Source: Lutjanus erythropterus
Lineage: Eukaryota; Chordata; Actinopteri; Lutjaniformes; Lutjanidae
Assembly: GCA_020091685.1 (NCBI GenBank)
Contig: CM034601.1
Coordinates: 16,669,320 to 16,733,319, forward strand
Direction of reading: 5' to 3'
DNA length: 64,000 nucleotides
The position numbers and the translations under genes were made by a program. Positions 1-50,990 of this stretch are shown here, in pieces; the first letter of the stretch is position 1, and each line of letters begins with the position of its first letter. Under the pieces are notes generated by a model, which had not been told where the DNA came from, did not search any database, and saw nothing but the letters and a program-made list of their open reading frames with translations.

Positions 1-1145
1 CAATATCAACATGCTGATATCAGGCATTAGCCTGCTAACATTTGTTCAGTAATACAAAGTACACCTTAGGCTTATGGACTATTTTGCAGGTATTTTGGTC
101 ATGAACTAGCCTGGAATCTCCCAACTAATATGTGAGAATGTGTATTTATCTGAAACCTCCCAGTTCATTTTCGATTTCTAAGGGGCGTTATCAACATGTG
201 TGGACCAAAATGCCTGTGGGCGCAATTTGATACACCTACAACCAATCAGACCAACAAAAAATGAATGCAGCAACCAATTCTTCTTATCTGATCTGCACTG
301 CTTAGTTTTAGTTTTGTGATCCTGAGGTGTTGCACTAGAGAGGATCTGCTGACTGGATGCTGTTGGATAGACTTATAAGCAGTTAAAGCAGCAGAACATG
401 TGACATGTGACTTTCAAATCTGGACAAGTGACTCTCCTCTGTCAGTCACTATAAAGACCTGCCACTTCTTAAATAAACGGATGTGATAACTCAATCCAAG
501 GCTGCTAGAATTATATCTGAACAGAAGGGAGGCCAGATGTGTCTGCCACACCAAGCCAAAACATAAGATTGGCAAATTTGTCTGGTTCCCAGGGTAGTGA
601 TAAACCAAAATATTTGACAAAGTTAAAAAATTGGACCTGATGATGGTATTAGTGGAAAGGTCAACGGATCAATGAAGTTACAACCGTTCATCTTGATAGG
701 AAGGTGAATATTCCTGTTCAAAACCTGATTGGTCAATACGACTTGGAATGCAAACGGAAACCAAAACGTTTGTGATACCAAAATCTTGTCCCATTCTTAC
801 AGATTCTGCATTCATATGCGCTTAACTGTTTATAGAGGTTATAGTCTGTGTTACAGTGCTCAGTTACACGGCTCAACAACAAAACACAGTATGATGAAAC
901 TGGACATGTTGCTGCAAACCGAACTGTCTTGATTTGTAAAATCTGTCAGATTTTAAGTCTCCTCATCTATCAAGACTTTTAAAATTCGTTCTGGTGTGTG
1001 GTATTTATTTTTAATCCGTTCCTTAAAATCACAGTCATAACAATCATAATTATGCTGTATAATTTCTATTGTATCCTGCGTCTACATTTGAATAATGGAT
1101 TTTTCCATTAATGGATAATTCAGTATCTTGTTGACAATGGTTAAC
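1..1145. other. Intergenic, no gene recognised
   Basis: AT-rich DNA without a convincing coding frame on either strand. The first 60 bases contain GATATC-type words like those of a dispersed fish repeat that is clearer near 63.4 kb. Confidence 0.5.
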
Positions 1146-1627: not shown

Positions 1628-2668
1628 ATGGGCTCAGAAGAGAAAGCTGCTACCATCTTTAATGCAACATTTGTTCGGCCTGTGAAATTTTATCTCAGTG
1701 GGTTTTCCAACATCCCTCATGTGAAGTATTACTATGTGTTCCTGTGTTTTGTCTATATCATGACAGTTCTTTGGAATTGCCTCCTTCTCTCAGTTATTTA
1801 TCTGGTCAAGACTCTTCACACTCCTAAATACATGATTGTGTTTAACCTGGCTTTGACAGATTTGTGTGGGAGCACTGCTCTTATCCCCAAACTCTTAGAC
1901 ACATTTTTGTTTAACAGGAGATACATTGTCTATGAGGCTTGTTTAAGTTACATGTTCTTTGTTCTGTTCTTTGGAAGTGTGCAGTCATGGACACTTGTCA
2001 CAATGTCCTATGACAGATTTATAGCGATTTGCTTCCCTTTAAGGTACCATAGTATTGTGACAAAACAAACTATTGCTGCAATGCTGCTGTCTGAATGGGT
2101 TTTTGTATTGAGTATGATAGCATGCATGGTTGGGCTTATTGATCGCCTCTCCTTTTGTAGATCTGTGGTGGTAAATAGCTTTTACTGTGATCATGGACCA
2201 GTAGCTTCTCTGGCCTGTAATAACATATCCTTCAGTGTCATAATGGCAAGTTTTGCTATCACTATGATCCTCTTTATTCCTCTTATATTGATAGCACTGA
2301 CATATGTTTGCATTTCCATAGCACTGAGCAGAATTGCATCAAAAGAACGACTCAAAGCATTGAAAACCTGTACTTCTCATCTGATTCTTGTGGCTATTAC
2401 CTTCCTCCCAATTGTGGGCACCAACATAGCAGCCATGACCTCCTACATCCATCCTAATGCCAGGATCATAAATTCAACTTTGACACACACCATACCATCT
2501 TTACTCAATCCAATTGTGTACTCTTTGAAGACAGAAGAAGTGCTGAGATCTATCAGGAAGCTTTTCAAAAGAAATAGGATTATCAACACAATGTCCAAAA
2601 TGCCCAGTGCCCAAAAAGGTGAAGTCCTCATCACTGCTGTATTGACACGTGAAGGAGTGTCACTGTAG
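1628..2668 (+). CDS. Odorant receptor, teleost type-1 OR (class A GPCR)
   Basis: A complete single coding exon of 346 aa. Olfactory receptors are seven-transmembrane receptors in cilia of olfactory neurons; they bind odorants and signal through G-olf. Visible hallmarks are an N-glycosylation site N12-A-T; LHTPKYM at 63-69 after TM1; the TM3 end MSYDRFIAIC at 126-135; extracellular Cys near 105, 177, 187 and 197; the KALKTCTSHL TM6 entry at 243-252; and PSLLNPIVYSL of TM7 at 290-300. Length and motif order are normal and no break is seen. The usual TM1 Gly-Asn pair reads Trp-Asn (49-50). The start at 1628 is the first ATG in frame; the frame upstream lacks an ATG and is probably intronic. The second OR (6138-7160) faces it tail to tail. 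The ligand is unknown, and the subfamily cannot be fixed without a tree. Confidence 0.95.
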   Translation: MGSEEKAATIFNATFVRPVKFYLSGFSNIPHVKYYYVFLCFVYIMTVLWNCLLLSVIYLVKTLHTPKYMIVFNLALTDLCGSTALIPKLLDTFLFNRRYIVYEACLSYMFFVLFFGSVQSWTLVTMSYDRFIAICFPLRYHSIVTKQTIAAMLLSEWVFVLSMIACMVGLIDRLSFCRSVVVNSFYCDHGPVASLACNNISFSVIMASFAITMILFIPLILIALTYVCISIALSRIASKERLKALKTCTSHLILVAITFLPIVGTNIAAMTSYIHPNARIINSTLTHTIPSLLNPIVYSLKTEEVLRSIRKLFKRNRIINTMSKMPSAQKGEVLITAVLTREGVSL

Positions 2669-4392: not shown

Positions 4393-6010
4393 GCTTTTCA
4401 CAGAAATTAAACATTCACAAACAACTAATGTTCAAGTAAGGTTGTTGATAATGGGATTTAAGTTTCTCCCCTTACTCTTCCTTGACCACAGTGCCTCTTT
4501 ATCCTTTCAGGTGAATGTTGTCCATCAAGCAGACAGAATTTTAAGTTTCCTCAATGTTCATAAGTATGAGCTTTTCATATCGACTCAGTCAGTTATGGTA
4601 TTTTTTCATGGAAGATGTATTTGACAGAGGATGAAAAAATGTGTTAAATAAGTATATAAGAACAACTAGAAAATGATTAGCAAGGAAACTAATGAATTAA
4701 AATTGTTGTTCAGTGGCTTTTGTTATTTCTTGTTTTCCATGTAGTGCTTTTACATGTTGACTGTCATTCATGGCACAGCTTGCACTGTACACATAAACCC
4801 ACTAGAGGGCAGGCACTCATCCTATTACAACACTACAGTCAGTGTTCTCAATTAGGTACAGCTTCAGTATATTCAGTATTTAATTTGATACAGTATAAAT
4901 TAAACACATAACTTTTTACACTTTTTTTTTTTTTTTTTTTTTTTTACATCTGACAGAGGAATCTACTATTCAAAATCATGTCACTATTCTAAACAACATA
5001 CTAAAGTATACTAGACATAAATGTTTATTTTATTATTTCCAATGTTGAGTTAACATGTACAATAGGTTGTCAAAATTAGAGGAAAAAGACATCATATCAT
5101 ATCATATATCATATCATATCATATCTCACACAAAAGAACTAAACTGATTTGGTATAGCAATTTAATTTGGCTGCAGTTTTTTGTATATTTTGACAGGACA
5201 TCGTATTGAAAAAATATTGCAAGTTACATTTTTTCATATTTTAAGCAGTTCAAGAATATTCGGATATGGAAAACAAATTGTGGTCGCAAAGTACACAAGA
5301 TAACAATAGACACATCACATAACTGGACAAAACAGGGCACACAAATAAACAAACAAAGATAACTGTGCAAGTGCGCAGTGCTCTGGGAATGTTGATCAAA
5401 CTGTGACACATGAAGACCTGCAGAGCCTATATCCTGAATAGGGTCCTCAAAAATTATGTATTCAGAAGTATAAAGAATCACTGATAAAAAGAAGAATATT
5501 TACAGCTTTTATATGGTTCTACATTTCATGATCACAGAATGATCAGAAACTCTTGCCTGGTCAGAGTCATATTAGTGAATTAACTTCACTAAGTTTGACT
5601 GTTAGTTCCCAGGATTCATCACAATGCACAGATTGACTGTTAGGTCACATGAAGAGATTCGTACAGAGATAATTATTGCATAATTATGTCCCTGCTATTC
5701 ATGCATATAAATGCAGTGTAACATAACTATAATATTTTCAGCCACATTATAAAACTTGAAGAATTTACGAGAAATTGTAGAAAGTAGATAAGCAGTGCTC
5801 TATGACAACTTGTATAACAACAATAAGCTGAAACAAACGAACCTTTTAGTGTTAAAACCTCATCCTTATCAATTTCATTTATTAAATTTAATAAATCTTT
5901 AAAAATGCAAAACTTATGAAGACATTTTGCAAATAAATAAATTCTTTGAAAGCCAGATAACAAATTCCTACTTTTTGCAACAATGTTGTTTGCCAGTTTT
6001 TCTTTTTTTT
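4393..6010. other. Intergenic with simple repeats
   Basis: Contains a T25 tract near 4921-4945 and an (ATATC)n patch at about 5090-5126. No gene is recognised. The small open frames have no domain features. Confidence 0.5.
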
Positions 6011-6137: not shown

Positions 6138-7160
6138 TTAGGGTCTACATTTTTCCTTCATTTGCTGAACAACCCTCCAAGGTTTGCTCTTACATTGGTC
6201 TGTGCCAATTTGACTTTTTCTCAGCAGTGCCAGGGCTCTGACTTTGATCTCTTTGGTTTTCAAAGAATAAACAATAGGATTGATGCAGGGTGGGATACAA
6301 GAGGCCAGTGAGAGGCTCAGCACACGCTGGTCCGGGTCAATGAGACCCAGATAAAGCCCGATAATAAAAATGGTAATGAGAGGAATGTAAAATACAGCAA
6401 CAAGAATGAGATGCTCAACACAAGTGGCCAGAGCTTTCACCCGACTGTCTAAAGATTTCATCCTGAACACAGTCACCAGGATACTGACATAAGACAGCAG
6501 AATAAAAGTAAAGGGGCCCACAAGGAGCAAGAAAGTAAGCAAAGTGGCCACAGACCACTGCATTGTGTAATCATTGCAGGCGAGTCTAAACACAGGTGCA
6601 TAGTCACAGAAATAACTGAACACTCTGACAGAATTGCAGAATGACAATCGGGTCATTATACCTACTGCAAATGCAATAATTCCCAGAGAAAAAGACCAAG
6701 TCAGACAAACAAGGCAAGACATGCTCCGCACTGTGTTGATTGAGTTGTGACGCAGAGGGAAACATATTGCAATCAACCTGTCATAAGCAAGTATAGCGAG
6801 TGCATATGACTCCAAAGTCCCAAAAGCATAGTAGACAAACATTTGTATCAAACATAAGTTGAATGGAATAAAATTGTCCTTAACAAGGAATATCTTTATC
6901 ATGCTGGGAATAGTGCATGTGTTCAGGATGATATCAATAACTGCGAGGTTGACCACAGCCAAAAATTTTGGAGTGTGTAAAGAATGATTAAAAGTAATTA
7001 CATAGATCACCAAACTATTGAACACCACTGTAACCACATAAACAAATGATAGAAAGATGAAGTAGACACTGATGAAGGGAAATGTCTCAAATCCGATGAT
7101 ATAGAAGCCTGGAGGATGAATGATGACAGAGTTGTTTAAAACAGTCCTGAGTAAAGACAT
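6138..7160 (-). CDS. Odorant receptor, teleost type-1 OR (class A GPCR)
   Basis: A complete intronless coding exon of 340 aa. Hallmarks: N-glycosylation motif N9-N-S; LHTPKFL at 61-67; LAYDRLIAIC at 124-133; Cys at about 103, 175, 185 and 195; KALATCVEHL at 242-251; and CIPPCINPIVYSL at 288-300. The tail is Lys/Arg-rich. It is clearly diverged from the OR at 1628, so this is not a recent tandem pair. An in-frame ATG at 7223 lies inside a probable 5' UTR intron (acceptor at 7204), so the start is placed at 7160. The usual TM1 Gly-Asn reads Phe-Asn (47-48). No disruption is visible. The expected role is odorant detection in olfactory cilia; the ligand is unknown. Confidence 0.95.
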   Translation of the reverse strand: MSLLRTVLNNSVIIHPPGFYIIGFETFPFISVYFIFLSFVYVVTVVFNSLVIYVITFNHSLHTPKFLAVVNLAVIDIILNTCTIPSMIKIFLVKDNFIPFNLCLIQMFVYYAFGTLESYALAILAYDRLIAICFPLRHNSINTVRSMSCLVCLTWSFSLGIIAFAVGIMTRLSFCNSVRVFSYFCDYAPVFRLACNDYTMQWSVATLLTFLLLVGPFTFILLSYVSILVTVFRMKSLDSRVKALATCVEHLILVAVFYIPLITIFIIGLYLGLIDPDQRVLSLSLASCIPPCINPIVYSLKTKEIKVRALALLRKSQIGTDQCKSKPWRVVQQMKEKCRP

Positions 7161-7499: not shown

Positions 7500-8726
7500 A
7501 TCTCTGGAGATCAGTCAACTTTGAATCAAGACTGACAACGTCAGTGTGCAAAACCGTATCCCTGAAATGAATTCGGTCCTCTGAGAGTGTGGCTATAGGT
7601 TATTTATTTGATGAAACTTGGGTAAAACAAGTCATAACCAAAGACAAGGAAAAAAAGAAAAGGGCATGAATAAAGATGTTGCTTTGACTGTTAAAATCTC
7701 CTGAAAGACTGACAAAAACTCAATCTGAATAATCAACAGATGTTTGCATTTTACAATGAGTATGTAATAATTACATTTTAATCACCACTACAGTATCCAG
7801 CTTTTCTAGCTGATGGACTAGATATTTGCAGTTCTTGCCTCTTTCTTGGTAATACACTTTGAAGCGTTGTTATTAAAATTCCGGAAAGAATATTTTTCAA
7901 TTACAAATATATACAATAACAAGGCAAATGAAAATTAAAGTATGGATGGCTTAAGACCCCTTTTCATGTCCAATATGGCAATCTTGAGTATCTGCTGGTA
8001 CCAATCCAACACTGCCCTTTTCCCTCTCTTAAACAACTAAGCTGTTAATAATGCATTAGGACAGAAGCTTAACAATGGCATCTAAAGATGTCATGCTCAA
8101 ACGGTGAAGCAAATATTTTACTCCCATGAAGGTGGAGATACAGATGTCATTTCATATTCAAAGTAAAATTTGAATAAATTGCATAAATGCATAAATTGCA
8201 CTTGGCTGTTTGGCTTTTTTCTTCTTTGAGCCTAAAATAACTTAAACACAGCTGATATGATGACAGCACTGCTCACAGGTTTCACTTGAGTTCCAGCTCA
8301 GTGATTTTCAAAGTCAGGGTTTCCAGGGGGCCTCAGCAAAATGCTAAAAAAAATTATCATGTAAAATTATTGTAAAATATAATTTAGATTGCTGGGGGTC
8401 TTTGCATGGAAAAGGTTTGGAAACCCCTGCTGTAGCTACTGTTCATGGGACACATGCAGCTCATCTTAATCCTGTTACTTGTGACACGTCTCTCTTTATG
8501 GAATGTAACTTAAAGTTTAGTTAAGTTATAAGTGGTATTTTATGCTAATGGTGGTAAAGAAATAATTACTACATGTGGTTTTCATACCGACAAAGTTGGA
8601 CGAAACTTTATTGATTTTCATTTTTTGACACCTTCATGAAACACTATAAATCTATAGGAATAATACATTTTGTGAACTGTGTTGATACAAATTGAATAAT
8701 GGGAGATAAACGTGTGTAATGACTCA
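7500..8726. other. OR upstream flank, no gene
   Basis: AT-rich, no coding features. A stretch at 8315-8430 ('gtttccaggggg', 'ggaaacccctgctg') looks like a decayed dispersed repeat. Confidence 0.45.
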
Positions 8727-8934
8727 ATAATTTTCTCTGAGGACACGTTGATTATTAAACGGACCACAGTGAGCCAAAACAAAATGATTCTAATGAGCCT
8801 AGTTTGTGAAGCCGTCAGCAGAGAGGTTTGGTTAATGACCTTGTCTTTAACAAACAAACCATTTACTGTTTAAACCTGAGACTAATTAATCTCAATTGCC
8901 CCTATTAGGAATAAAAACAATTAAAAATGGAGAC
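8727..8934 (+). promoter_or_regulatory. Conserved element copy A (homeodomain/forkhead array)
   Basis: First of six related non-coding elements. It opens with TTCTCTGAGG (8733), then CTAATGAG (8790), GTTAATGACC (8831), ACAAACAAACC (8850), TAATTAATCT (8883) and CTATTAGG (8902). The start-to-start spacings of 41, 19, 33 and 19 bases equal those of copy B. The TAAT words are homeodomain-type sites and ACAAACAAACC is forkhead-type. It lies about 1.5 kb upstream of the - strand OR. The regulatory role is inferred. Confidence 0.65.
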
Positions 8935-9935
8935 AAATGGATGTGGCTGTACATTATCATCTCGTTCTGATTACACCTGCTTTGAAAGGGCCACAAGAGA
9001 AACGGCAGAAGTGCTTTGACAAGACTAGCTTTTGTTTAATCGAATGACATGTTTGAGCTCCAACCTAATGGTTCTGGTTCGTTATATAAAATTTTAAAGG
9101 ACATTCAGACTTTAAACTCAGTTTACCATTGGTTACTGTACTTTCATCATTAGCTTTTTTATGGAAATCTTTTCTTGTGACTATCGATCTCTGAAGCTAA
9201 GTTTAAATGTCTCATTTCAATACATATTTAATTTGTGATTTTTTTTTATAACATGATGCCGATTTGAATCACTGACAGATGTGTCGTAAAAGCCTTCAGT
9301 GACTTGTGTAATTTCGGCTCACTGAACAACTTCCATATTTTGCGCATTACTTTTAACCTGATATTTTCTTTTAACCACTTTGGTGCAGTTGCTGGGATAA
9401 TTTCATAGTAAAGGACATACAAAATACCCATATTTTATATGAGCACAGCAGCACAAAATGTTTCTGTTACGATGTTAATATTCTATAGAAAATCAGTCAA
9501 AAAAGCTTAAATATTCATCCTAAAAAGTGCTATAACATAATGACCATGCACAGATCTGAGCCCAAATACTAGTTCAGTATGATCGGAAAAGCATTTTAAA
9601 TGTGGAACAACCAGCACATTAACCTAACAACAATGATGAGACAATTTATGAGGGTTGTAAATGTTGGTTACAATAATATGAAGTCAATGAGTATTTCAGG
9701 TCACAGATAAGGACCACAGCAGTCCAATATACAAATGTCATACAATTTAATTCAAGTACAACCAAGTTTATGCATAAATAAGTCAGCAATATGTGGTTGC
9801 AAAGAAATTGTGACGTGTATTTCATTCACTTGTTGCATTTGGTGAGTGTTTAAATAATGGCATAACGTCAAACAAAATTAATGTAAAGGAAAATATTATT
9901 GAACAGTAAGCCAAATGTGAGGAAACCTTGCTCTT
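8935..9935. other. Intergenic, nothing recognised
   Basis: AT-rich DNA between element copy A and a dispersed repeat. No coding or repeat signature that I can name. Confidence 0.45.
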
Positions 9936-9937
9936 TT

Positions 9938-10340
9938 TAAAGGGACAGTTCACACCCGAATCAAAAACACATATTTCTCCTCTTACCTGTAGTGCTATAT
10001 ACCCATCTACATTGTTTTAGTGTGAGTTTCAGAGTTTTCAGCCATAGAGATGTCTGCCCTCTCTCAAATATAATGGAGCTGGATGCCACTTATCTTGAGA
10101 AGCACAAAGCACAAAAAATACATTTGAACAATTCAACACCAGTGTCTCTTTGTAGAGATCATGACCTGGTTACTCAAGATCCACAGACCTTTCTGTGAGA
10201 AATTTGATTTAACTAAAATCTACCCGAACCACTTTCTTTCGATAGAAACATTTTCATAGTACGACTTTTGTGTTTCTGGTTCTTCTGTAAGGATCACATT
10301 AGAGTTGGCTTAGTAAACCCATACTTCACAAGCCTTGACA
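9938..10340 (+). repeat. Dispersed fish repeat starting AAAGGGACAGTTCACACC
   Basis: The words 'aaagggacagttcacacc', 'cctcttacctgtagtgctat', 'agagatgtctgccctctctc' and 'catgacctggttactcaaga' follow a non-autonomous DNA-transposon-like repeat that I recognise as abundant in perch-like fish. Only one end is clear. Confidence 0.6.
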
Positions 10341-10713
10341 TATTGGTAGCCACCCAGTAATGAGTTTTGTTCTCTGTGTTCAAGGAGTGCTGAACTAAAA
10401 ACCAAGAGGGAATTTGGATCTCACAGGCTCACAGCATGGACATAAAACTATCACCAACATGGAATATTTAGTGGATACAGAGTATTTTTTCCTGTTAATG
10501 TGAAACCCTGGATTGCAGTTGAAAGATCTTTACAAATATTGGTGATTCAAACAAACCTTTATTTCCATCAGACGACATTAATAACTGAGATTGTTGTCTA
10601 CTTATTCCACGTATAAAGAGACCTGTCAGTCGATCATAGTGTAATCTGTAGAATATAAATAATATATCTAACTTGGATGTGACTGAAAAACAAAATATGT
10701 CTACTGCATGATC

Positions 10714-10918
10714 TTCTCTGAGGGGCGTTTAAAGGACTTCCTTTTGCATCTTGACACCTTAGAGTCCTCCTAATAAACCTAGTTAAACATTTCATCATCC
10801 GAGAACGCAAGTTAATGACCCTTCTCATAACAAACAAACCTTTTGCTGTTTAAACCTTTCCCTAATTAATCTCACTTGCATCTATTAGCGGGTCTTGCGG
10901 TCTCACATTTGGAGGGAA
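10714..10918 (+). promoter_or_regulatory. Conserved element copy B
   Basis: TTCTCTGAGG (10714), CTAATAAA in place of CTAATGAG (10770), GTTAATGACC (10811), ACAAACAAACC (10830), TAATTAATCT (10863) and CTATTAG (10882). The spacings 41, 19, 33 and 19 are identical to copy A although the intervening bases differ. The block that is EBF-like in copies C, D and F is degenerate here but sits at the same distance. Confidence 0.65.
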
Positions 10919-11187
10919 ATGGATTGGAGCCTGAGTGCACTGCCAACATTTCCCCCAAGACTACCTCTTCTGAAATAACAAGTGAAGTTTCTTTGGACTA
11001 AACAGCAACACATCACTTGAACTTGTAGAGGCCTAATTAAATATTTGAAAAATCGACAAATGATCAAAGCTGTGATTTTGCTATCACAGCAGTAGACTCA
11101 CAGGCTAATACACCTGTATTGTAAAATATCCTGAACCTTCACACCTTGTTTAAACTAAACTGTATGAAGTAACAACATTGACAATGA

Positions 11188-11473
11188 ATAGTATTCCCTG
11201 AGAGGACTTTTGTCACCAAACAGGACACGGTGACCGCATGCAAAAGGATCCTCTCCTTCCTCTTTGACTCCTGGGAACCCTGCTAATGAGCCCTATTTAT
11301 GATGTCATTACCAAAGGATGCTGGTTAATGACCGCCTGCCTATAACAAACAAACCTTTTTACTCTTCAGACTTAAGCCTAATTAATCTCATCTGTATCCA
11401 TTAGGAGGTTTTGCACTCTTGCAATTAAAACTGTAATGGGAAGGGGTGTACACTGATATTAATGAGTCATTAG
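11188..11473 (+). promoter_or_regulatory. Conserved element copy C (full length)
   Basis: One of the two most complete copies. Order: CACCAAACAGGACA block (11213), EBF-like GACTCCTGGGAA (11266), CTAATGAG (11283), ATTTATGATGTCATTACC (about 11295), GTTAATGACC (11324), ACAAACAAACC (11345), TAATTAATCT (11379), CCATTAGG (11398), TGCACTCTTGCAATTAAAAC (about 11412) and a terminal AATGAGTCATTAG. It aligns end to end with copy F, 10 kb away. The interval to copy B is under 300 bases. Confidence 0.7.
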
Positions 11474-11929
11474 TGTTCTTTAGAAGCTCAAGTAAACCCC
11501 CCTCATTGTTTAATAGTAACCTCTTCTCTGAAGGGCTGCAGTCTCAGCCCCTAACGCACCACTGATGCCCTTTCTGAAGTTGCCTTTTTATAATTAGTAG
11601 GCTATGTGTCACAAACAAAAGGTGCCATTAGAGTTGAGATTGTGTTCACATTTATTTGCTGCGTTGGTACTGGACACAAACATGAGGACTGGGCTGACAG
11701 CTCACAAGACATCTACTTTAAAAATTACTTTTTTTAAAGCAGCAAGAAATTCAAAACGCTGCTAAACAACCTGAAAAAATCAACTACAGTTACCAGATAA
11801 ATGTGCAATCTGGTGTTAGTTTAACAATTATTTAAAGTCAGCTTTCATGTGTCATGTTCCATGTGTCCTCACTTCAGCTGTCCTATCAGTGAAAGGCATA
11901 AAACAAAAATACTCAAGGATGAACTGATA
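11474..11929. other. Intergenic between element C and a repeat
   Basis: No gene seen. A TTCTCTGAAGGGC word at about 11523 resembles the opening of the conserved elements, but the remaining motifs do not follow. Confidence 0.4.
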
Positions 11930-12590
11930 AGACTTTGGTGATTAACAGTCAAAGGTTAAGGTCACTGTGACCTTATGTCTATCCCATTTCTGTGTGGACT
12001 CAAGAGTGAACTGATGTTAGAATTTGGAGGTAAAAGGTCAAAGTCACTGTGACATGTTGTGGCCATGACTTAAGAGTTGATGCACTAATTATGACAACAT
12101 TTCACACACAAATATCTAATAGGATATATTGACGAAGTGATTAAATTTTATATCCAAAAGCTCAAAAGGTCACCTTCACCATGACATCATAATGTTCAGT
12201 CTTGTGTACTCCTCTGTAAAAAATAGTCTGTAGGTGAAGACAGCTTGTTTCTCACTGAAAATTATTCAGTGGAATCACACATGTATAGTGAGAATTTCTA
12301 TTGTGCCAAAAATGTACTTAATACCTTTTATTAAATTCGAACATCTTCACTACATATGTTATATGAGTCTGGACAGACATGGATATAAACTGCCACCTGG
12401 CTGGTTGGTGGAGGAAAAGAACCACAAAGAGGTAATTCTAGTAATGTGGAGCAACGTTAGGCCAGAGGTGGTTATGGCTCATGACAATGACAAATAAACT
12501 GTATTTAATGTGGGTTAGACAACTGGCTGATACCTGATCTGCACAATAAGGTCAGTATCGGCACTGATACTGAATCAGCATATCGGTCCA
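11930..12590 (+). repeat. Dispersed fish repeat rich in GGTCA/TGACC words
   Basis: Contains 'aaaggttaaggtcactgtga', then 'aaaggtcaaagtcactgtg' and 'caaaaggtcaccttcaccat'. It is followed by a second segment through 'agtctggacagacatggat', and then by 'gcatatcggtccatcccta', typical of a repeat end. A related copy in the opposite orientation lies at 20635-21240 and another at 47940-48250. AGGTCACTGTGACCT at 11959-11973 is a perfect estrogen-response-element consensus. Confidence 0.6.
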
Positions 12591-12604
12591 TCCCTACTAT
12601 ACCT

Positions 12605-12835
12605 AATCTTCCCACTGTGTAAGATTTAGGGGGGATTTATTGGCAGAAAATAAGAATTGTTGTGTTTTGTTACCTTAGAATGAGACATTTTTATCTACAG
12701 AGGGTGCAAGTCCTCTTCTGCCATGTTGCACTACCATGTTTCACTGGCTTCAGATACAGCATTTCATATTTTTTCCAGAGAAAACACTCACCGCTAGATG
12801 TCGCTAAATCCTACATACTGGCACTTTAAGTTAAA
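12605..12835 (-). repeat. Dispersed repeat with 'gctagatgtcgctaaatcct' end
   Basis: The words 'gtaagatttaggggggattt', 'aataagaattgttgtgtttt' and 'ctagatgtcgctaaatccta' belong to a fish non-autonomous element. A longer copy in the opposite orientation is at 14862-15190 and a truncated one at 19395-19560. Confidence 0.6.
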
Positions 12836-13634
12836 ATAACTTTTTTAGTAGTCAGTAAGCACTGACCACCCTCTGTTCTACTCATGGAATATGAATGGCT
12901 TTCACGGACTGGTCTTACTATAAACTTACATTAATATAAACATGCAGTTAAGTCTCTGTATTGACTCTTGTCTTTTCAGACATAATTTTCAAGCAAACAT
13001 GCTGTCTTAAAAATATTCCAGGTACAATTTCTCCAACAGAAACCTTACAAATACGATGCCTCTGTAGTCAAAGCAGTCTGGAAGTTCAACAACTAAATAT
13101 ATTCTTGAAAACTTTTTGTCTAGACCATCATGAAAAAATGGTGTGAGTTTTAGAGGATTAGGGGGATGTTGAAAATAGGAAAATTTAATGATAAGACCCA
13201 GCAAAGAGTCCATCTTGATCCTTAAAAAAGGGGCAGATAAGAGCTGCCTTCAGTTTTATTCTATAAAGCTGTTTATAAACTGCATAAAGATTTACATAAT
13301 ATAAGCTTAAAAACTGAGGAAAGGCTTATTCCCAACAGGAAATTTGGCTTTTTTTCTGTCATTAAAAACAAGTCACAATAAGACATTGGGATTTTGCATG
13401 TTATTATGTGTTAGTACCAATGAAGAATCATCTCAAAAGAAGTGAAGTAACTGTGCTAAACTGCACTTTTAAGAACAACAGAAGACTGGGTACAAATTCT
13501 TTTAATTATGTACAGAGGGCTGTAAAATTAATCTTTTTGGGTTAAAGGAAGGGTGACTATTTGATGGTGATGATTAAGTGTCAGGTTTTACTGAAAATGT
13601 AATGTCTCTCAGATGTATTTGCATTCCCACTTCC
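12836..13634. other. Intergenic, nothing recognised
   Basis: No gene, and no repeat that I can name. The short open frames at 12961-13213 overlap on opposite strands and lack domain features. Confidence 0.4.
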
Positions 13635-13636
13635 CC

Positions 13637-13840
13637 CTCAATTCCTAATGAATGAGGGGAGAGATTAATTAGGCAAAAAGTTTCAACAGTAGAGGGTTTG
13701 TTTGTTTACAGGCAAGGTCATTAAGCATCGCTCCCCCGGTGATGCCATGACAACTGGGACTCATTAGAAAGACTCCGAGGAGTTAAAGAGGCACGATCCT
13801 TTTGTCTTGGGTCATCACGTCCTTTTTGATAATAAAATGA
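13637..13840 (-). promoter_or_regulatory. Conserved element copy D (inverted)
   Basis: Same element on the - strand. Reading down: AGGACGTGATGACC block (about 13825), AACTCCTCGGAGT (13784-13772), CTAATGAG (13767), CTTAATGACC (13725), ACAAACAAACC (13705), TAATTAATCT (13671) and TCATTAGG (13651). The spacings 42, 20, 34 and 20 are within one base of the other copies. It is the only inverted copy. Confidence 0.65.
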
Positions 13841-14861
13841 GTCGTAAATTCCAAGGGGAATCTCATGAAAGTGTCAAGACGAGGCAATAAATGATGATAT
13901 AATTAATGTATTGTGGATTCTCTGCAATGCAAGTCTATTGTGTGTTCAAGTCAATCCATGTTGCAATAATAGACTGACCTTGGCTAACCTTTAAACCCCG
14001 ACTTCATGATTTTCATGAGCCCAGGCCGGGCCGTGATTTATGAAGGTTACTGGGGAAATATACATAGATACCCGGCGAGCTCCACTAGTGGATTTAACGT
14101 TTAAAGACCATAGCTAGTGACTTATATTAGGTTTCAGTGCAACATTTGGCTGTCAAAATATAATATTTTAGTCCAGGCCACTAACTTTTTATGTGTGAAA
14201 GTTTTATGTTATAATAATATTTTAACAAACTTCTCCCACTGTTAAGTTGCAGCATCTGTGATTTATGACCACACCTCAACTGCCTGATCTACATTTCTTT
14301 AATCCTGACATTGACTGATGATTCATTCCACTGCAAGGTAGTGGATATAAAATGAACACTTGTGCTCTGTTCTGTGAAATTGATGTGTGAAACTTTAGAT
14401 ATAATTAACTTTCTCAGGGGACATGACAGTGAGCATAGGTGGCGCTCAGTTTTGTGAGCTCCACCACAGCCTTCACATGCTATTCTAGATTAACTCCTCA
14501 AAAGGCACACTTGCAAAACGCATTTATGGTGTTTATAGTGTGCAGTCAGCAATTCTTTGCCTGACTGCTGGCCTAAAAAACTATGTGCACAGTATATGTG
14601 GTGTATATTCTACAATCAGGCCCAGCAGTTTGGCTGACTCATGTAATCTTCTTTTCTTCCTCAGTCTTCTTATTAAACATAAAAAATAAAAAATATTGAG
14701 GGCATAATGGGTAAATCCTTCTGTGAATGCAGTTTAGAGGCCATTTATAGATTAGTGTTAGGCACCAGAATCCTGTAAATCTAACAGTGCTGTAAAGCAA
14801 CAATTCTCATTTATTTGGAACATTGCCACCAATTGCCTAACCAGATGAATTAAAGAACCAT
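13841..14861. other. Intergenic
   Basis: No gene. The stretch at about 13975-14060 is more GC-rich than its surroundings and not recognisably repetitive; it may be another regulatory sequence. Confidence 0.35.
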
Positions 14862-15190
14862 TGGGTAAGATTTAATGGCATCTAGCAGTGAAATAGCAGA
14901 CTGTAACCAACTCACCTGCCAAGTGTATAGTCTATATATATCTATAGTGGCTGCGAAGCTTGTGGTTAATGCGAAAGTCCGTAACTAGAGCCAGTGTTCA
15001 GTTTATCCGTTCTGGCATGGAAGAGGACCCGCGCCCTCTGTAGGTATAAATAGCTCATTTTAAGTTAATGAAAGCGCAATAATTCTTATTTTCAGGTTAT
15101 TATACAGTAATTAAAAACATATATATGATTTTTATGTTCTATTTCTGCCAATAGAGCCTCCTAAATGCTGCACAAGTAACCTTTAAAGGG
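14862..15190 (+). repeat. Dispersed repeat, opposite orientation to 12605-12835
   Basis: Runs from 'gtaagatttaatggcatcta' through 'tagagccagtgttcagttta', 'gaagaggacccgcgccctct' and 'aataattcttattttcaggt' to 'ctgccaatagagcctcctaa'. This is the near full-length form of the family, degraded and non-coding. Confidence 0.6.
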
Positions 15191-15199
15191 ATATTAAAG

Positions 15200-15660
15200 T
15201 TATACTATTATAAGTCAGTGGTTCTGACTTTGTCTTTTTCTGGCATGACAGAAGCAGAAACTATAAACAATAACTGATGAAACAACTAATAGAAAAATGA
15301 TTTGAGATGAATTTTAGTAAATAAAGTTAAGTGCCATCAGTGCATCAGCAAACCTTATTTATTCAGTTCAACTTTGTTTCACTTTATGTTTTTTCCTTGA
15401 TCATCAACGCCCCACCTGCAGTGGCTCTGTGCCCCAACAGGGGGGCCCCTCCCCCCGTTTGAGAGCCACTGGTGTAAATGGTATAACAAAATCTTAGATA
15501 TTGCTAAACATTTCGCAGTATAGATTGTCATAAAACCCAACAATAGTTCAATACAATCATTATATAATCTGTCCACCATGCCTAGAAACCCAAACTCATG
15601 ACATTGGCAGTTTAACTTAAAGCTTTTTAGACTTCTGTATAATCCAAATATTATTCCACA
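15200..15660. other. Intergenic, nothing recognised
   Basis: AT-rich. An open frame on - at 15379-15702 has no recognisable domain and runs into conserved element E, so it is not called a gene. Confidence 0.4.
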
Positions 15661-15803
15661 CAAGGCTCCCCTGACTCTTTCCTCCCTCCTAATGAGACTC
15701 ATCTATGATCTTGCCTGTAACAAAAACATTTTACTGTTTAGACTTAAGCCTCATTAATCTCATTTGCCTCTATTACAAGGTACTGAACTCCCATTAAATC
15801 TCC
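15660..15803 (+). promoter_or_regulatory. Conserved element copy E (shortened)
   Basis: CTAATGAG (15689), ATCTATGATC, CTTGCCTGTAAC, ACAAAAACATT (degenerate forkhead site, about 15720), TTACTGTTTAGACTTAAGCC, TCATTAATCT (15751) and CTATTACA (15770). It keeps the 19-base spacing at the 3' end but has lost the segment carrying GTTAATGACC. Confidence 0.55.
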
Positions 15804-16514
15804 AAAGTAAAATCATTTCTCAAATAGTGATTAATGTAATGTTTCTGTAATTGATGAGTGAGGCAAAAATAAACTCGAGCCGCGGCAACAGATACAATAA
15901 CACAAGGTAACTGCTTTATCAACCTCGATCAGTCCTCGTCTCCCCCTTATGAAGACTGGATCCGCAATAATTTGAAGTATTTAAAAAATTTGTGCTGCAC
16001 AGAATGAAACTTATTCTGCTCCTATAAATTTATTTCATTTTCATTAATGCCCAAACATGTTTGACTCAACAGTTCCCATCAGTGTCGGTGAATAGTGAGT
16101 TATTTTTCCTTCTCACATAGAATGACCATTGTCACAGTTAAGGTAATCACTATATTCATTGTACTGTATGTATGAGGTACTGAGTAATCCCTCAGAATAT
16201 AAAAAGACCTTATAGTTTTCATATGTAGGAAATCAGCAAAGCCTTCATTGAGCTCTATATGTTTCTTTCAGGTCATAAGTCAGTTGATGCATAATTTAAA
16301 CTGAACTGCAGATTTCATGCAACATCCAGTCGTGGACTTTCTGCAGCTCAAGCAGAAACTGGAGTGATAGATAAAACCAATAACAGGGGTCATTATTTAA
16401 TAATGGTTGATTAGAGTTTCTGCACAACTATAAATGTCTAGTAATGCATGCTCTTGGTAGGTGATGTCAGGATTAGTGCCTGTAAAAGGAAGGAATGAGT
16501 GAGGCTTGCATAAT
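15804..16514. other. Intergenic
   Basis: No gene. The 15840-15960 stretch is moderately GC-rich and non-repetitive, and could be regulatory. Confidence 0.35.
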
Positions 16515-16800
16515 CATAATAACTTTATTTATATAGCACAGAGTTTACAAAGTGCTTTGACAAAGCAAAAGTAGGATACCCAGGAAGCAATTTAACAGCA
16601 GAAAGCCAAACAGTGAGGCCAAATAAAAGCAAGACAAAGACTAAAACTGAGGTAAAATTAAATACAAAGCAAAAATGCCCATTACCATAGTAGAAAAACA
16701 GAATGATAAAAGAGATACGAACAATAAAAGCAAGAAAAATGTGTCTATATAAATAAATAGAAATAAAGACAATAAAAAAAGACCTTGTCACATAATGTTG
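16515..16800 (-). repeat. Dispersed fish repeat 'aactttatttatatagcaca'
   Basis: The opening 'aactttatttatatagcaca' followed by 'tacaaagtgctttgacaaag' is a very common teleost repeat start, with an A-rich tail region after it. A weaker relative sits near 7275-7340. Confidence 0.5.
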
Positions 16801-17018
16801 AAGTTATTTACAGCAGACAGACCAGAAGAGGCTGTGTTTACACTTTTACAGGCAAAGTTATAGTGAGTAGTGAGTTTAAACCATAGATCTAAGGGAGGAA
16901 CACACGTTAAACATCACACAAATAAACACATGTAAAACATACATTAAACATTGACTTAATCACAGATAGCAACCATAAGACATATACTAAAGAACAGCAT
17001 TAATATTTATAAATACTT

Positions 17019-17084
17019 ACTTGCACTTTTTCTAGGAACTCGATTGAGAGTTCTCAATCGAGTTCCCAGAAAAAAAATGCAAAT
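17019..17084. repeat. Inverted repeat / hairpin
   Basis: GGAACTCGATTGAGA at 17035-17049 is followed, after two bases, by its exact reverse complement at 17052-17066. The flanks 'ttgcactttttcta' and 'cagaaaaaaaatgcaa' extend the pairing imperfectly to arms of about 30 bases. The element type is unknown. Confidence 0.75.
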
Positions 17085-18950
17085 CCAATATATGGCATCC
17101 TACTTATATTTTTCAAGATGTTTCCTTGGTTGCTTTTTAAACAATGATTTCTGTGTTTATTTAGTTTATAAAGTATTCTGTGTTGTCATTGCTTTATACT
17201 ACTGTGCATTTAAGGAAATAAGTGCTTGTCTTTGGGAGTGAAAACTGGCCTTCTGTTGTCTGCTGGCGTATGCTGCATTTTAGACAAGTGGCCACATGAG
17301 GGCAGTAGTTGACAGTGTTAAGATTTTAATAGTGAGGGCTAAGAGCAGTGCAAAAAGCTGGTGTGCACTCCAATGCACACTGAATGATATGAAGGTTGTA
17401 CTCTGCTACACAACATACTATTAGAGCTGTATGCATCAGTTTAGCATCATATAATGCAGGATGGGTCCAGGAGTGATTTGAAGTTTGTCTGCTCCTGGAT
17501 TGATTTTGAGGTCAAGGATGTTATAGCAAAAACATTTAATCATTGTGACAAAACTTTTCTAAATACAAGTAGAAATGAGTGAGCGTAAAAAAAAAGTGAA
17601 AGCGTTGTACTGTGTGGTTCAGGTTGTTAGTTGAGACTGTGCTCAGAGGAGGGAGCTCTGTGAATGCTCAGATGGTGACAGACAGGTTGTCAGAGCAGAT
17701 GCTGTTTTCTCTGAGGTAGCAGGCCAATGTTATGACCGGTCAGACGATCGGCAGCTTCTCTTGACTGAAGGACAGCATGAAATATTCAAACTGCTGAGAC
17801 TGCATTTTTTTTTTTTTGCAGCCATTTGAATGAGAAGATGCCCATCACGTATTCATGCTGCTCGGACAGACTGGCTGGCAGCTAATTAGCGCAGCTACAG
17901 TAGATGGTGTTGTGATCAATGGGAGTGGGATTTAATGAGCACTAAACATTTAGTGATCAAGATGAATAATCGTCATAAGGTATTTAAATGCATTTTTTTA
18001 AATAACTTCAGTGATTAAAAAACAATGTATTGAAATATAATTGTTGTTCTCTAATTGTAGTGAAGCCACGGCTTTTGTCAAATGTGGCACAGAGAATGAG
18101 TAAAAGGTTTAAAACCTATTTAAGAAATGTAAGTTTTATTTATTTATTTATTGTTAGCTCACTTATTTTTATTGTAGCACCAACAAAATACAAACTTTAC
18201 GTCAGATTGAGTGGTTTACCCATTTACCCCTCAGGCTTATCCCCCCCACCTGTCCCTGTCCCGTCCACCGACCAACTTACACAGACAAAGCATCCTCATC
18301 CAGACAGAAGATCCTTCAAGTTAGACATCAAATTTGTTCACATTTAAAATGATGTTTGGCCGTTCATCATTGACTCTTTCTGCTGATAGTTCCAAGTAAG
18401 AAATGTCCAAAAAGCTGAGACATCAGTGAATAATCTGTAAGTGAGGAGGCTTCCAGCGCTGGAAACAACAGTCTTGTTTCCTGCCGTTAGACCTGCCAGC
18501 CACACTTTGTGTGCTTTTTCTGTTAATCCTTGTTGTAGAGGCATACAGGAAAAACACTATGTTACAACCAGAAACTGATAACACTGGCTTCTTTTTTCCC
18601 CCCAGGGCTCTGAACAGTTTCTTCTTTTGTGACATAATGTCATTTTTGTTTTGTTAAAATGGATTTGGTATCAAAAAAAGTATTTCTGCAGTATTGAGCC
18701 AATGCATCGGTAGGTGTACCTGTACTCCACCCTAAATATATCCCTGTCTCAAGCTTTAACTCCTGATGTAGGCATATGTTTTGGGGAATTTAATTTAGCA
18801 TATATATATGACACTATCTCATATCCACAGATTTTTGGCATGACCTCAGTTCTGATGAAAATTCATCTTATTGCATGCATTTAAAAAGCGAGTCTCAGTT
18901 TGTACCTGGGTACGAACAGACACACAGCAGCTATTCGGCTGTTCAAGTTC
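17085..18950. other. Intergenic, possible regulatory stretch at 17,870-17,990
   Basis: No gene. 'gcagctaattagcgcagcta' and 'gggatttaatgagcacta' near 17880-17945 carry homeodomain-type words, but not in the fixed spacing of elements A-F. There is a T-run near 17807. Confidence 0.35.
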
Positions 18951-18954
18951 ACTG

Positions 18955-19045
18955 TTGATAAGAGGCTGTGGAGGACTAATGGATTAAGCACATGGCCGTC
19001 CTGCGGGAGAATTGGGGTTCAAGTCCAATGCTGGGAGATTATGAT
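18955..19045 (+). repeat. Possible tRNA-derived SINE head
   Basis: GGTTCAAGTCC at about 19016-19026 matches a pol III B box, and 'atggattaagcacatgg' about 45 bases upstream resembles an A box. The intervening sequence does not fold into a clean tRNA cloverleaf, so a decayed SINE is more likely than a tRNA gene. Confidence 0.35.
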
Positions 19046-19394
19046 TTGACAGGAGTGTGAAATTACATGTCAGTTATACCAGTTATTTACAGTTTTATTT
19101 TTTTCTTTTAATTTTCAGTTTTTGGCAGCAGTTTATTTTTAAAAAGTTAAATAAATTAAATAGTCTTACGATACTTCAAAATTTTGAATTAAAAGACTAT
19201 AGAATATAGTTCACTGAAATGAAATTTAAAATAAATGTTATATTTCCTGTATTTTTGTTTCAATATCAGCCTGTTATCTAGTTGCAATCATGCATGCAGC
19301 GTGCACATTCATTATCCATGTTTACCGGTAGTTACAAGCCAGTCCAGATCAGGAGGAGAATATTTTCAGCTGAGTTGAAAATGAAGTGGATAAC

Positions 19395-19565
19395 AGTGAA
19401 CTGTAGCCACAATGGCTTTTTACACTGTGAGTACAAATTATATTGTTGGCTACGGATGCCTTGGTGCTCGTCTCTGCCATGCCAGGGTATATAAACCTGG
19501 GTGTAAATATTATATTCCTTTTCTACCATATTCTGCCAATAAAGCCTCGTAAATCTTACACTTGA
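19395..19565 (+). repeat. Truncated dispersed repeat
   Basis: Ends with 'ctgccaataaagcctcgtaa', matching 'ctgccaatagagcctcctaa' of the copy at 14862-15190. Only the last ~100 bases are clearly related. Confidence 0.5.
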
Positions 19566-20634
19566 CTTTTACATGTGTGAAATAAAAGGCAGACATAGAT
19601 CAATGAAGATCTGCACGGCTATTTTTCCAATTTAAAGATATCATGCAGGTTTCAAAGTGAGACACAAAAAGTGTGCGATATTCTGCTACTAAAATTTGCT
19701 GTTGAGCACGGTATAATAAATCTACAATAACTGTGCACCTCAGACATCCAATTATTCATTCATATATTGATGGAGTGATCTCTGGTTGTCCTTCAGAGGA
19801 CAGCCCAGCCAGTAAAAAAAGCTTAATTAATACCTCTTAGCAGCGAGGCAGCTGCTGAAGGGTGTTCAGTACCATAGAGAGCAACTTGTAAAAACTGCTT
19901 CAAGGTTTTTATGAAATGACATAAGGTCATCAAAAAGTCTGTGATGCATAGAGAAGCACCAGTTGTGGGATTTGAGTTGCCAGCTCTATATTTCGATTGC
20001 TTCCACGGTGCCTGGGTTGTATCTTGCGCTTCAGTGTCACCTTTTCAATCACTCCACTAACCCAGGATGTGAAGGATATTAATGATTCTTATTAACCAAT
20101 TAATCTGATCCAAAATGAGCACCTGTGCTCTTTCTGGAAAGAACTTGATTGAAATTAACGTGTGAAATTTGAGGGATTAATGCTCGTCCTACAGCAAGAG
20201 ATTAAGGTCAGAACCCTCTCAGTGTATCTTTCTCACAAGCTCATTCCACGCACTGACTGTTTCTTCTCAGAAATTGACGGGAAAGTCCACGGGTTTAATT
20301 AGCTTATAGATCTGAGACACCTGTACAGCTTGTTAACACAGAATCTGTTCTACTGGTCAAAGGCCGATCGACCGGCCAACCAGTTCAGGGTGGATTAAAA
20401 CCCAGGCTGGGACTGCAGTGGTCGTCTTTATCGCCTGATGTGGTCCTGTTCAAAACCCACATGACCTTTGAGCTCAGAGGCCAGACAGAAGTTCACAATA
20501 TCGGACTTCAGTGCATCGGTTCCCATGGTTTGTAATTACACTGCAGCCACCTGAAAATGGAAATATTGAGTGTTGTAATGCATTACTTTGTAATTATCTC
20601 CCTTGCTCAGATTCATCCTAAGGTGATCTTGTAT
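19566..20634. other. Intergenic, largely non-repetitive
   Basis: No gene. The 20000-20560 part is of balanced composition and not obviously repetitive, with homeodomain-type words such as CCAATTAATCTG (about 20098) and TTAATTAGC (about 20296). It could be regulatory. Confidence 0.35.
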
Positions 20635-21240
20635 GTATGAAGTAAGTCAGCTAAATACTAGAAATGCCACCTTGTGGTTGTATGACTTCTAGTTTTCACC
20701 CATGTCTGTCCAGACTCATCATATATGTGCAGTGAAGATTTTGAAGGAATTTAATAAAACGTAGTAAGTCTACTTTTTTGCCAAAAGTACAGAGAACCCA
20801 TAGAGAGCTTCAAGTGTTTTTGCACATTATGATGTAACAGTAAAGTTGACTTTTGACCTTTTGGGTATAAAAATCATTTTATCCAATTAGACATTCCTGT
20901 GAAATGTTGTCATAATTATCATATGCACTCTTGGTTATGGTCCAACACATTTTTTCTGAGGTCCCAGTGACCCTAGATCACTAAATTCTTATCAATTCAT
21001 CCTTGAGTCCAAGTCGATGTTTGTGCCAAAGACATTGAGATATTGCATTCACAAGAATGGGACGGACTTGAGGTCACAGTGACTTTGACCTTTGATCTTT
21101 GACCTCCAAAATAAAATAATCTAATCCTCCACTGCTCCAAGTGGCTGTTCGTACCACGTTTAAAGAAATTCTGCCCTAGCACTCCTGAGATATAATAGCA
21201 CAATACCTCCAGCCATGGCTGTTGCCGACATGGAAGTGTT
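20635..21240 (-). repeat. Dispersed GGTCA-rich repeat, - orientation
   Basis: Inverted relative of 11930-12590: 'catgtctgtccagactcatc', 'gacttttgaccttttgggta', 'gaggtcacagtgactttgac' and 'ctttgatctttgacctcc'. It directly abuts conserved element F. Confidence 0.6.
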
Positions 21241-21262
21241 AAAATGATGTCATACCAAATGT

Positions 21263-21547
21263 ATAGTATTCTCTGAGGGCGCATTTATCACCAAACAGGA
21301 CATGCTGACCCCAGACAAAAGAACTTTGACTCCTGGGAGCATCTCTAATGAGCTCCATTTATGATGACATTACCACTGAATGCAGCTGTCACTGTTAATG
21401 ACCTTGCCTGTAACAAACAAACCTTTTACTGTTCAAATTTAAGCTTAATTAATCTCACAAGAACTTGTTAGGTGCCTCAAGCCTGCACTCTAACAATTAA
21501 AACTGGAAGGAAAATTGTGGGGGTGTACTGTAATAATGAGTCATTAA
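21263..21547 (+). promoter_or_regulatory. Conserved element copy F (full length)
   Basis: TTCTCTGAGG (21269), CACCAAACAGGACA (21290), EBF-like GACTCCTGGGAG (21328), CTAATGAG (21345), ATTTATGATGACATTACC (about 21357), GTTAATGACC (21394), ACAAACAAACC (21413), TAATTAATCT (21446), TTGTTAGG (21465), AACAATTAAAAC (about 21492) and a terminal AATGAGTCATTA. The spacings after GTTAATGACC (19, 33, 19) equal copies A and B. It aligns with copy C over about 285 bases. Confidence 0.7.
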
Positions 21548-21862
21548 GGTTGGTCTGGAAAGCTGCCACTTAATTTAAAATAAACAAGAGAATTGTCAAA
21601 TGAGCGACCCCTCTGTGACACATATTCAGAGCTGTGGTTTAACCACAAGCCCTCGTCATCCTCATCATCATCTTAAGTGATGTTTAGATCCTCCGAAATC
21701 TGAAGTCTGATCTCAAGTGAACTTCTGTGAGATCAACCCTTCAAGGGCTTGATGGACACTAGAGGAGCAGAGTTACCCAGTATGCATTGCGATCATTCAT
21801 TATTTCCTCTGAACAGTGGAATATAAATTAATATACGTGTAAAAAAAAAAAAAAGCTACACT
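21548..21862. other. Intergenic with A-run
   Basis: No gene seen. An A14 run lies at 21841-21854, where the GGTTCT repeat begins. Confidence 0.4.
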
Positions 21863-23131: not shown

Positions 23132-23620
23132 AGTATAAGGGATAGTTCGGTTTGTTTAAAGTGGGATTGTATGAGGTACTTATCGATAGTGTGACAGTAG
23201 ATGCTGGTTAGGACATGCCCAGTTTGGGCAAGCAGAGAGGGGCACCAGCATGGGAGCTCACCAATGTACTGCTGTGGACAGAGTCAGCAGCAAAACAAAT
23301 TTAGGCTACTTAAAAAAGGTCCACTTAAAAAACACAATGTCAGTTTTAGTGTATACTAAATGTATAATATTTTCACAACTTCAACTTGACATCAGACAGC
23401 TTTTTCTGACAGACAACTCAGTAGCAGTAGAACAGCAGTTCTTGTGTTCTGTGAGGTAAAATGACTGATTTCATACATGGAGTCTGGTTACTGACAAGAG
23501 TGATATTTGGCTAAAATAACTATGGCTGGTGGTGAGTTAAAGCAGTGAAAATATTATAAACATATCTTACACTTAAACTGATATTTCTAGCTTGTAACTT
23601 GCAGTGGATCACACAACTGA
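23132..23620. mobile_element. Foldback element, internally deleted copy
   Basis: Starts 'gggatagttcggtttgttta', with 'agcaaaacaaatttaggcta' inside, and then passes directly into the opposite arm ('cagcagttcttgtgttctgt', 'ggtaaaatgactgatttcat'). It is homologous to both arms of the foldback element at 50095-50990, but shorter. No transposase. Confidence 0.5.
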
Positions 23621-33303: not shown

Positions 33304-33559
33304 GTTAGGCTCACAGTAGATCTGTGCCGATGTGTCGTGCAATCTACACTACAATCCACTCAGGCGTGTAAAGTCGAATCAGACCGGCACCGGTTACTTC
33401 GAACCATCAGGATAGAAAAAACGCACTTTCCACGGTCATCTTTGCTCCCCGATGAGTTTCCTGTGAGATATTTACGCATCGGACGGTGGACAACAGCCGC
33501 ATGTGGCTGCGTGGAAAGCTGCTGATCTGCGCTCCCTGGGTGGTATTTTTGACGCCTGT

Positions 33560-50094: not shown

Positions 50095-50990
50095 GGACTA
50101 GTTCAGATTATTTGAAGTGGGGTTGCATGAAGTCCTCATCAACAGGAAGTGTATTACCTACAGTAGGTAGCAGTTGGCACCCCACTAGTTTAGAGCAGCA
50201 TAGAGGGACACCAGCATGGAAGCTAAGTAATGTACTGCTGTGGACAAGGTCAGCAAGAAAAGGTATTTTAGCCATGTAAAAAAGGGCCACCTAAAAATAT
50301 CAATATAATTTTAAGTCTGTGCTATATTTAGAATATTTTCACAGCTTTACTTTGCCGTCAGACAACCTTTTCTGACAGGAAAATGCCCTTAAAGAGGCCA
50401 AATATCGCTCTCTCCAAACCATCCAAACTCCATAGGAAAAATCACTAATTTTACCTTGCAGAACACAGGAGCTGCTGGTCTGTCCCTGCCTTGATCTATA
50501 AGTTAGTTAGTCTGTGTGTTACTGTTTAACTTTGCTGAATCATAACTATCTTTTGAAACACCAAACTCACACACTAACACAAACAAATTAACAGATCGAG
50601 GCAGTGATAGACCAGCAACTCCTGAGTTCTACGAGGCACGATTACTGATTTTGCCAGTGGAGTTTGGTTTGGAGAGAGCAATATTTGTCTTATATAACAG
50701 TGGTTTTCCACTGTAAAAAAAAAGGCTGTCTGACAGCAAAATAATGCAGTGAAAATATTGTTAATATATTGTGCACTTAAACATATATTGACTTTTTTGG
50801 GTGGACCTTTTTTTAAGTGGCTAAAATACTTTTTGTTGTCCACAGCAGCACATTGCTTAGCTTCCATGCTGGTTCGCCTCTCTGCTTCTCTAAACTTAGG
50901 GTGTGCTGACTGCCTACTAATGCAGGTAATACACTGACAAGCAGCAAGTCCCTCACACAACCCCACTTCAAATAATCAGAACTATTTTTC
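50095..50990. mobile_element. Foldback element, ~0.9 kb inverted repeat
   Basis: The left arm (about 50095-50501) begins with 'gttcagattatttgaagtgg' (50101), and the right arm (about 50594-50990) ends with 'cacttcaaataatcagaact', its near-exact inverse. The inner ends 'gctgctggtctgtccctgcc' and 'ggcagtgatagaccagcaac' also pair, around a spacer of about 90 bases. No transposase, so non-autonomous. A shortened relative is at 23132-23620. Confidence 0.75.

Follow-up and report, generated by a model that had tools for sequence, protein, structure and literature searches.

Why should one non-coding element stand in several copies where a fish odorant receptor (OR) cluster ends, and which genes would it serve? 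The question is raised by a 64,000-nucleotide stretch of the Lutjanus erythropterus genome (the window, C11:16669320-16733319; 937.6 Mb of the genome were searched), in which six homologous non-coding copies of the element, here termed A-F, lie within 8.7-21.6 kb. The array starts where the OR cluster at C11:16.642-16.676 Mb ends. We regard it, with a probability of roughly 60%, as a paralogous cis-regulatory array, most likely of olfactory-neuron enhancers that act as a shared locus control region of the adjacent OR cluster. The original prediction, made from the letters of the DNA, had likewise tentatively assigned the array to the OR cluster; the OR-cluster neighbourhood was confirmed by Pfam and by a genome scan, and the locus-control role is putative.

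The six copies proved real. An nhmmer profile matches A-F with E-values of 5.4e-92 to 1.6e-41, which are circular, as the profile was built from these very copies; independent evidence of homology is provided by a genome BLAST search with copy F alone, which recovered A-E at E-values of 9.3e-38 to 2.5e-7. The start-to-start spacings between the successive words of the element are 41/19/33/19 in A and B, 41/21/34/19 in C, 42/20/34/20 in D and 49/19/33/19 in F, while E retains the last gap of 19, and all of these values are identical to those read originally. The five full copies (A-D and F) measure 296-337 bp, i.e. the extents first assigned to the element were too short. Of the motifs said to be shared, the order and spacing stand, but several of the motifs are inexact: CTAATGAG reads CTAATAAA in copy B, CTATTAGG is exact only in A (one mismatch in B and C, two in D, E and F), GTTAATGACC begins with C in copy D, and copy E has degraded second and third words and one mismatch in the fourth. 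An eroded seventh copy (G), which had been overlooked, retains the ACAAACGAACCTTTTAGTGTTAAAA part, and its place is also found among the rows of a degenerate genome-wide pattern (see below), with 2 mismatches. We found no further copies between 22 and 64 kb of the window (best extra profile match at E 0.052), in agreement with the original statement that the remaining 42 kb hold none, nor did the profile reveal any in the surrounding 174 kb (next best match at E 0.14). Copies A-F contain at least two stops in every frame and G at least one, and a coding exon is ruled out by these stops together with indels that do not come in threes. A structured or small RNA gene was likewise rejected, with 0 Rfam matches at the gathering score and 0 tRNAs in the window.

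Alignment of the copies, with conservation calculated for each column, shows what has been kept and what has drifted. Among the five full copies the words (47 columns) exhibit a mean pairwise identity of 92% and the linkers (73 columns) 60%; for individual pairs, 2-11% of the motif columns differ as opposed to 25-47% of the linker columns (Jukes-Cantor distances of 0.02-0.12 and 0.30-0.73, respectively), so divergence is not uniform inside and outside the motifs. Because the words had been chosen for looking conserved, we added a word-free test, in which the columns of the core were shuffled: the observed clustering of invariant columns was attained in 0 of 20,000 shuffles, and the longest invariant run, of 13 columns, in 49 of 20,000. 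Pairs of full copies have 0-12 gap columns in the core vs 12-74 in the aligned flanks. The 400-bp flanks of the copies resemble one another about as much as random pairs do: of 30 flank comparisons, two (scores of 28 and 32) exceed the 95th percentile of the background, 26, and none the 99th, 35. Copies B and C stand near enough to each other for the flank of one to extend into the other copy. In all of A-F, a unit of ~300 bp is flanked by unrelated sequence. From the contrast between words and linkers, the scarcity of gaps in the core and the random-like flanks, the copies look old, with their words and distances kept. One ancestral element of ~300 bp was multiplied locally, and one copy is now inverted. 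Its wide divergence, with about five short words and their spacing retained, is as would be expected under purifying selection, an argument made on paralogues within one genome; the selection on motifs and spacing that was originally proposed is thereby supported both by the divergence contrast and by the column shuffles.

The unrelated flanks and the inverted copy would also suit a low-copy mobile or satellite-like element multiplied at this place, with patchy similarity left by chance or by gene conversion. Searches of the genome speak against such an origin. BLAST with F returned six matches, all at this locus (A-F) and none at other OR clusters, and with A four of four matches lie here (D and E were not returned); a search of this type skips very common words and scores the best candidates only, and diverged copies elsewhere could be missed. 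The exact core pattern has four matches genome-wide, again all here (reversed-pattern control, 0). A shorter pattern, TAATGACC-8..12-ACAAACAAAC, gave 8 rows, 5 of them here (control, 2), the others being one on C6 (35.45 Mb), 1.17 Mb from the nearest OR match, and two overlapping ones on C13, inside a simple repeat. With up to 3 mismatches allowed, the degenerate pattern gave 20 rows (control, 10), and five of the six rows with no more than 2 mismatches lie here; the sole outside row with 2 mismatches, C3:3102660, yielded a profile match of 22 positions and 5.9 bits (E 0.0014 over 701 bases), which we attributed to chance. Neither the hundreds of scattered copies typical of a dispersed repeat nor any BLAST match beyond this locus was found, and since the outside pattern rows are single or at the level of the reversed control, we rejected a dispersed repeat or transposon; the original view that these are not young transposon copies holds. 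Besides, the strong difference between motif and linker divergence is at odds with a mobile or satellite-like unit, and gene conversion would hardly stop repeatedly at words of 8-13 bp while keeping their spacing. We therefore consider this explanation very improbable.

The same searches qualify the expectation that the element would cluster at OR loci: it does lie beside an OR cluster, but, with clusters and single matches each counted as a locus, it was found at only 1 of 11. Profile searches found no copies in 90 kb of C11:1.255-1.345 Mb, around another OR cluster (best E 0.75), or in a small sampled part of the further OR clusters on C4, C6 and C20 (L040-L042; best E 0.61). In the 1.5-kb upstream stretches of 13 OR domains, TTAATGAC was the only element word encountered, with a single occurrence in each of two stretches.

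The preferred reading as an OR enhancer array draws on the content of the copies as well as on their location. As in OR-cluster enhancers, the copies are non-coding DNA in or next to an OR cluster (nine OR matches; copies at 5.8-21.6 kb) with multiple homeodomain sites: 34 TAATKR sites fall in the 1,813 bp of the six copies, or 18.8/kb vs 3.9/kb elsewhere in the window, a 4.8-fold enrichment (palindromic TAATTA was counted on both strands, inside and outside the copies alike). The element is rich in TAATGA and TAATTA, and the homeodomain-like character first ascribed to its TAAT cores is upheld by these densities. Another of its words, ACAAACAAACC, is presumably forkhead-like. The O/E-like consensus YYYCARRRR, adopted from PMC5638857, occurs eight times in the copies (4.4/kb vs 1.5/kb outside, 2.9-fold), and in A, B, C, D and F one such site occupies profile-match position 31-38 on the same element strand. 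Across 174 kb, the list of 250-bp windows that contain at least 5 homeodomain sites has 26 entries, of which 5 overlap A, B, C, D and F; 7 of the 26 also have an O/E-like site, and 4 of these 7 overlap A, B, C and F.

Several observations weigh against this interpretation. Copy E has no O/E-like site, and the common position of the site in the others was inherited by descent, so that the copies are not independent witnesses. Most of the homeodomain-rich windows, 21 out of 26, are located away from the copies, and motif density alone is consequently a weak indicator. What we take to be the strict EBF palindrome, TCCCNNGGGA, is not clearly enriched, with best matches of 5-7 out of 8 positions in the copies (among 203 outside tiles the best match is 6 in 60 and 7 in 15). 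This palindrome is near the YCCCNNGGGR given in PMC8213819. The mammalian class I motif AAACTTTTC is exact in 0 of the 6 copies, with best distances of 1-2 as in most random segments; the words TTGCATCA and TAAAGTTTTC of the SHiTE motif of trace amine-associated receptor (TAAR) enhancers are also exact in 0 of 6 and no closer than in random segments, and the same lack of closeness applies to an extended homeodomain motif. Lastly, the array sits between the ORs and a leucine-rich repeat (LRR) gene, with copy F nearer the latter, which makes its target ambiguous.

It is indeed conceivable, if unlikely, that the array regulates this LRR gene (32.2-33.3 kb; presumably TPBG-like) in some neural tissue, the ORs being bystanders. 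Homeodomain sites serve many tissues, the second-best solved match of the LRR protein is trophoblast glycoprotein, and copy F lies 10.7 kb from the gene vs 14.1 kb from the last OR. On the other hand, every copy except F, or six out of seven, is closer to the ORs, with the eroded G between two OR genes, and the O/E-like site would suit olfactory neurons. Moreover, the LRR protein has three weaker matches at other places in the genome (40-48%, C-terminal half), none of them with a copy of the element nearby, given that genome BLAST found copies in this window only. We assign a still smaller chance to the copies serving not as enhancers but as conserved insulators, matrix attachment sites or silencers, with a structural or boundary function where the OR cluster ends, a view for which their location and the retention of words in place of long sequence could be cited, while the homeodomain enrichment and the O/E-like site fit activators of olfactory genes better.

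If the copies are OR enhancers, as we favour, LIM-homeodomain (Lhx2-type) and EBF-type factors would bind each of them at fixed spacing, by analogy with work on the mouse, and a third factor would bind ACAAACAAACC in each copy. Bound copies would then make chromatin accessible and contact, by looping, a single OR promoter in each neuron, as accounts of mouse enhancers suggest (PMC5608512, PMC5638857, PMC7804114). With several copies next to each other, choice of this cluster could become more likely, and the loss of single copies, such as the decaying E and G, could be buffered.

Among known systems, the mouse Greek Islands are mostly single, mutually unrelated elements, the LSCHR hub is made of different enhancers, and E15-1, the locus control region of the zebrafish chr15 OR locus, is a teleost OR cluster control element. 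The array may be considered analogous to the mammalian H, P and J elements and Greek Islands, with membership unproven. The Greek Islands and the H and P elements are reported to be, like the copies described here, intergenic, sited within an OR cluster or at its margin and a few hundred bp long, with several TAAT sites, kept motif spacing and an O/E-like site, for which the copies have a candidate (PMC5608512, PMC5638857), and H, P and J have in common several homeodomain sites with a neighbouring O/E-like site (PMC5638857). Enhancers of this kind are further characterised by a composite Lhx2/Ebf motif with a set distance, by Lhx2, Ebf and Ldb1 binding and accessible chromatin in olfactory neurons, and by a fall of OR expression in cis upon their deletion. 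In contrast to the Greek Islands, 6-7 homologous copies lie here in ~16 kb, with the extra ACAAACAAACC word at kept spacing. The J (A) element, from the class I OR cluster of the mouse, acts at the level of a cluster, as is proposed for the array, and possesses multiple homeodomain sites and an O/E-like site; its region is reported as undetected in zebrafish and Xenopus (PMC5638857, PMC7804114), and its class I motif is the one that is exact in none of the six copies. The TAAR elements TE1 and TE2 resemble the array in being two cooperating elements of one receptor cluster with a common short motif (PMC8213819, PMC8213717), and TE2 contains a triad of TAATGA within 206 bp (PMC8213819); they have one block of ~30 bp in common, whereas the copies here share a whole grammar of 120 bp, and differ in lacking exact SHiTE words. 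The engineered five-enhancer LSCHR hub of the mouse brings several OR enhancers together at a single locus (PMC5608512), as the array probably does, but it is artificial, while the present array is natural and paralogous.

The scan of the genome with the 7tm_4 family yielded at least 138 scored OR matches (from 392 candidates; a lower bound), nine of which form the cluster next to the array (C11 16,641,882-16,676,371). Eight of these are encoded on the plus strand and the ninth on the minus strand; seven are near full length without stops and two are fragments. NCBIfam returned 0 families for the 3 window proteins, and viral contigs 0 matches. A separate repeat family, perhaps a transposon, is present in the window at 23194-23412, 50160-50378 and 50836-50935, in direct and inverted copies of 71-82% identity. 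The coordinates of the element copies, their O/E-like sites and the neighbouring genes are collected in Table 1.

Table 1. Copies of the array element, O/E-like sites, genes of the window and copies of the element at a second OR cluster (window coordinates unless a contig is named)
Feature	Position	Strand	Remarks
Copy A	8701-8996	+	nhmmer, genome BLAST from F, motif positions; core motifs 8790-8909
Copy B	10685-10986	+	nhmmer, BLAST, motif positions; first motif altered to CTAATAAA
Copy C	11159-11495	+	nhmmer, BLAST, motif positions; linkers nearest those of F
Copy D, inverted	13579-13894	-	nhmmer, BLAST, motif positions
Copy E, shortened	15616-15850	+	nhmmer, BLAST, motif positions; without stretch between CTAATGAG and second word
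Copy F	21235-21561	+	nhmmer, BLAST, motif positions
Copy G, eroded, partial	5796-5879	+	nhmmer E 1.4e-6 in window; between two OR genes
O/E-like site, copy A	8734-8742	-	YYYCARRRR
O/E-like site, copy B	10715-10723	-	YYYCARRRR
O/E-like site, copy C	11195-11203	-	YYYCARRRR; second at 11268-11276 just before CTAATGAG
O/E-like site, copy D	13849-13857	+	YYYCARRRR; minus strand of inverted element
O/E-like site, copy F	21270-21278	-	YYYCARRRR; second at 21330-21338 just before CTAATGAG
OR gene	1640-2668	+	Pfam 7tm_4 E 7.7e-52; likely target
OR gene, last of cluster	6138-7160	-	Pfam 7tm_4 E 4e-48 and genome scan; likely target
LRR gene	32218-33348	-	right of array; best solved match IGF acid labile subunit, second trophoblast glycoprotein
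MYND-finger gene	58732-59781	-	right of LRR gene; weak match to SMYD1
Second-cluster element, left	C11:1272859-1273097		wider segment C11:1272805-1273110
Second-cluster element, right	C11:1326878-1327116		inverted
Second-cluster element, partial third	C11:1327677-1327788		beside right copy
Second-cluster element, C19 copy	C19:7746838-7747143		in longer 77-90% identical segment without OR-scan match

Analysis of other OR loci revealed a different element at the cluster C11:1.278-1.321 Mb, whose receptors are ~28-33% identical to those of the window. Inverted copies of it, 94% identical, flank this cluster ~5 kb outside each end, and they carry homeodomain and O/E-like words (TAATGAG, TAATGAG, TAATTAG and CTCCTGGGA). 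Genome BLAST with this element returned three copies on C11 and one on C19; it may represent either another private family of OR elements or a duplicated segment of low copy number, and we do not count it as evidence. On C4, a stretch at 32.910-32.911 Mb (L042:2151-3000), ~2.5 kb beyond the final OR match in the cluster C4:32.84-32.91 Mb, is rich in homeodomain sites (windows of 7 and 6 TAATKR per 250 bp) and has no O/E-like site. The OR fragments C4:23789789-23790211 and C20:33259174-33259596, the latter ~13 kb from the contig end, have identical scores and stop counts and are a possible assembly duplicate.

No multi-copy OR enhancer array in a teleost appears among the literature matches listed, judged by titles and the beginnings of abstracts. 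A bolder proposal, which we put forward only tentatively, is that the array constitutes a natural enhancer hub in cis: a homotypic series of 5-7 paralogous enhancers that all obey a single rigid grammar (homeodomain, homeodomain, forkhead-like, double homeodomain and homeodomain, plus O/E), i.e. a local counterpart of the gathering in trans of dozens of unrelated single enhancers in mammals, in which case each OR cluster may own a private element family. Teleosts may also use uncharacterised teleost-specific TAAR enhancers, according to PMC8213717. In our judgement, the choice of one OR per neuron is poorly mapped in fish, and the element resembles a control switch of OR genes that has multiplied naturally. 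Its seven copies, in graded states of decay, amount to a natural mutation series for finding which bases and distances matter, and the array permits a direct test of whether the copy number of an enhancer sets the frequency with which a cluster is chosen.

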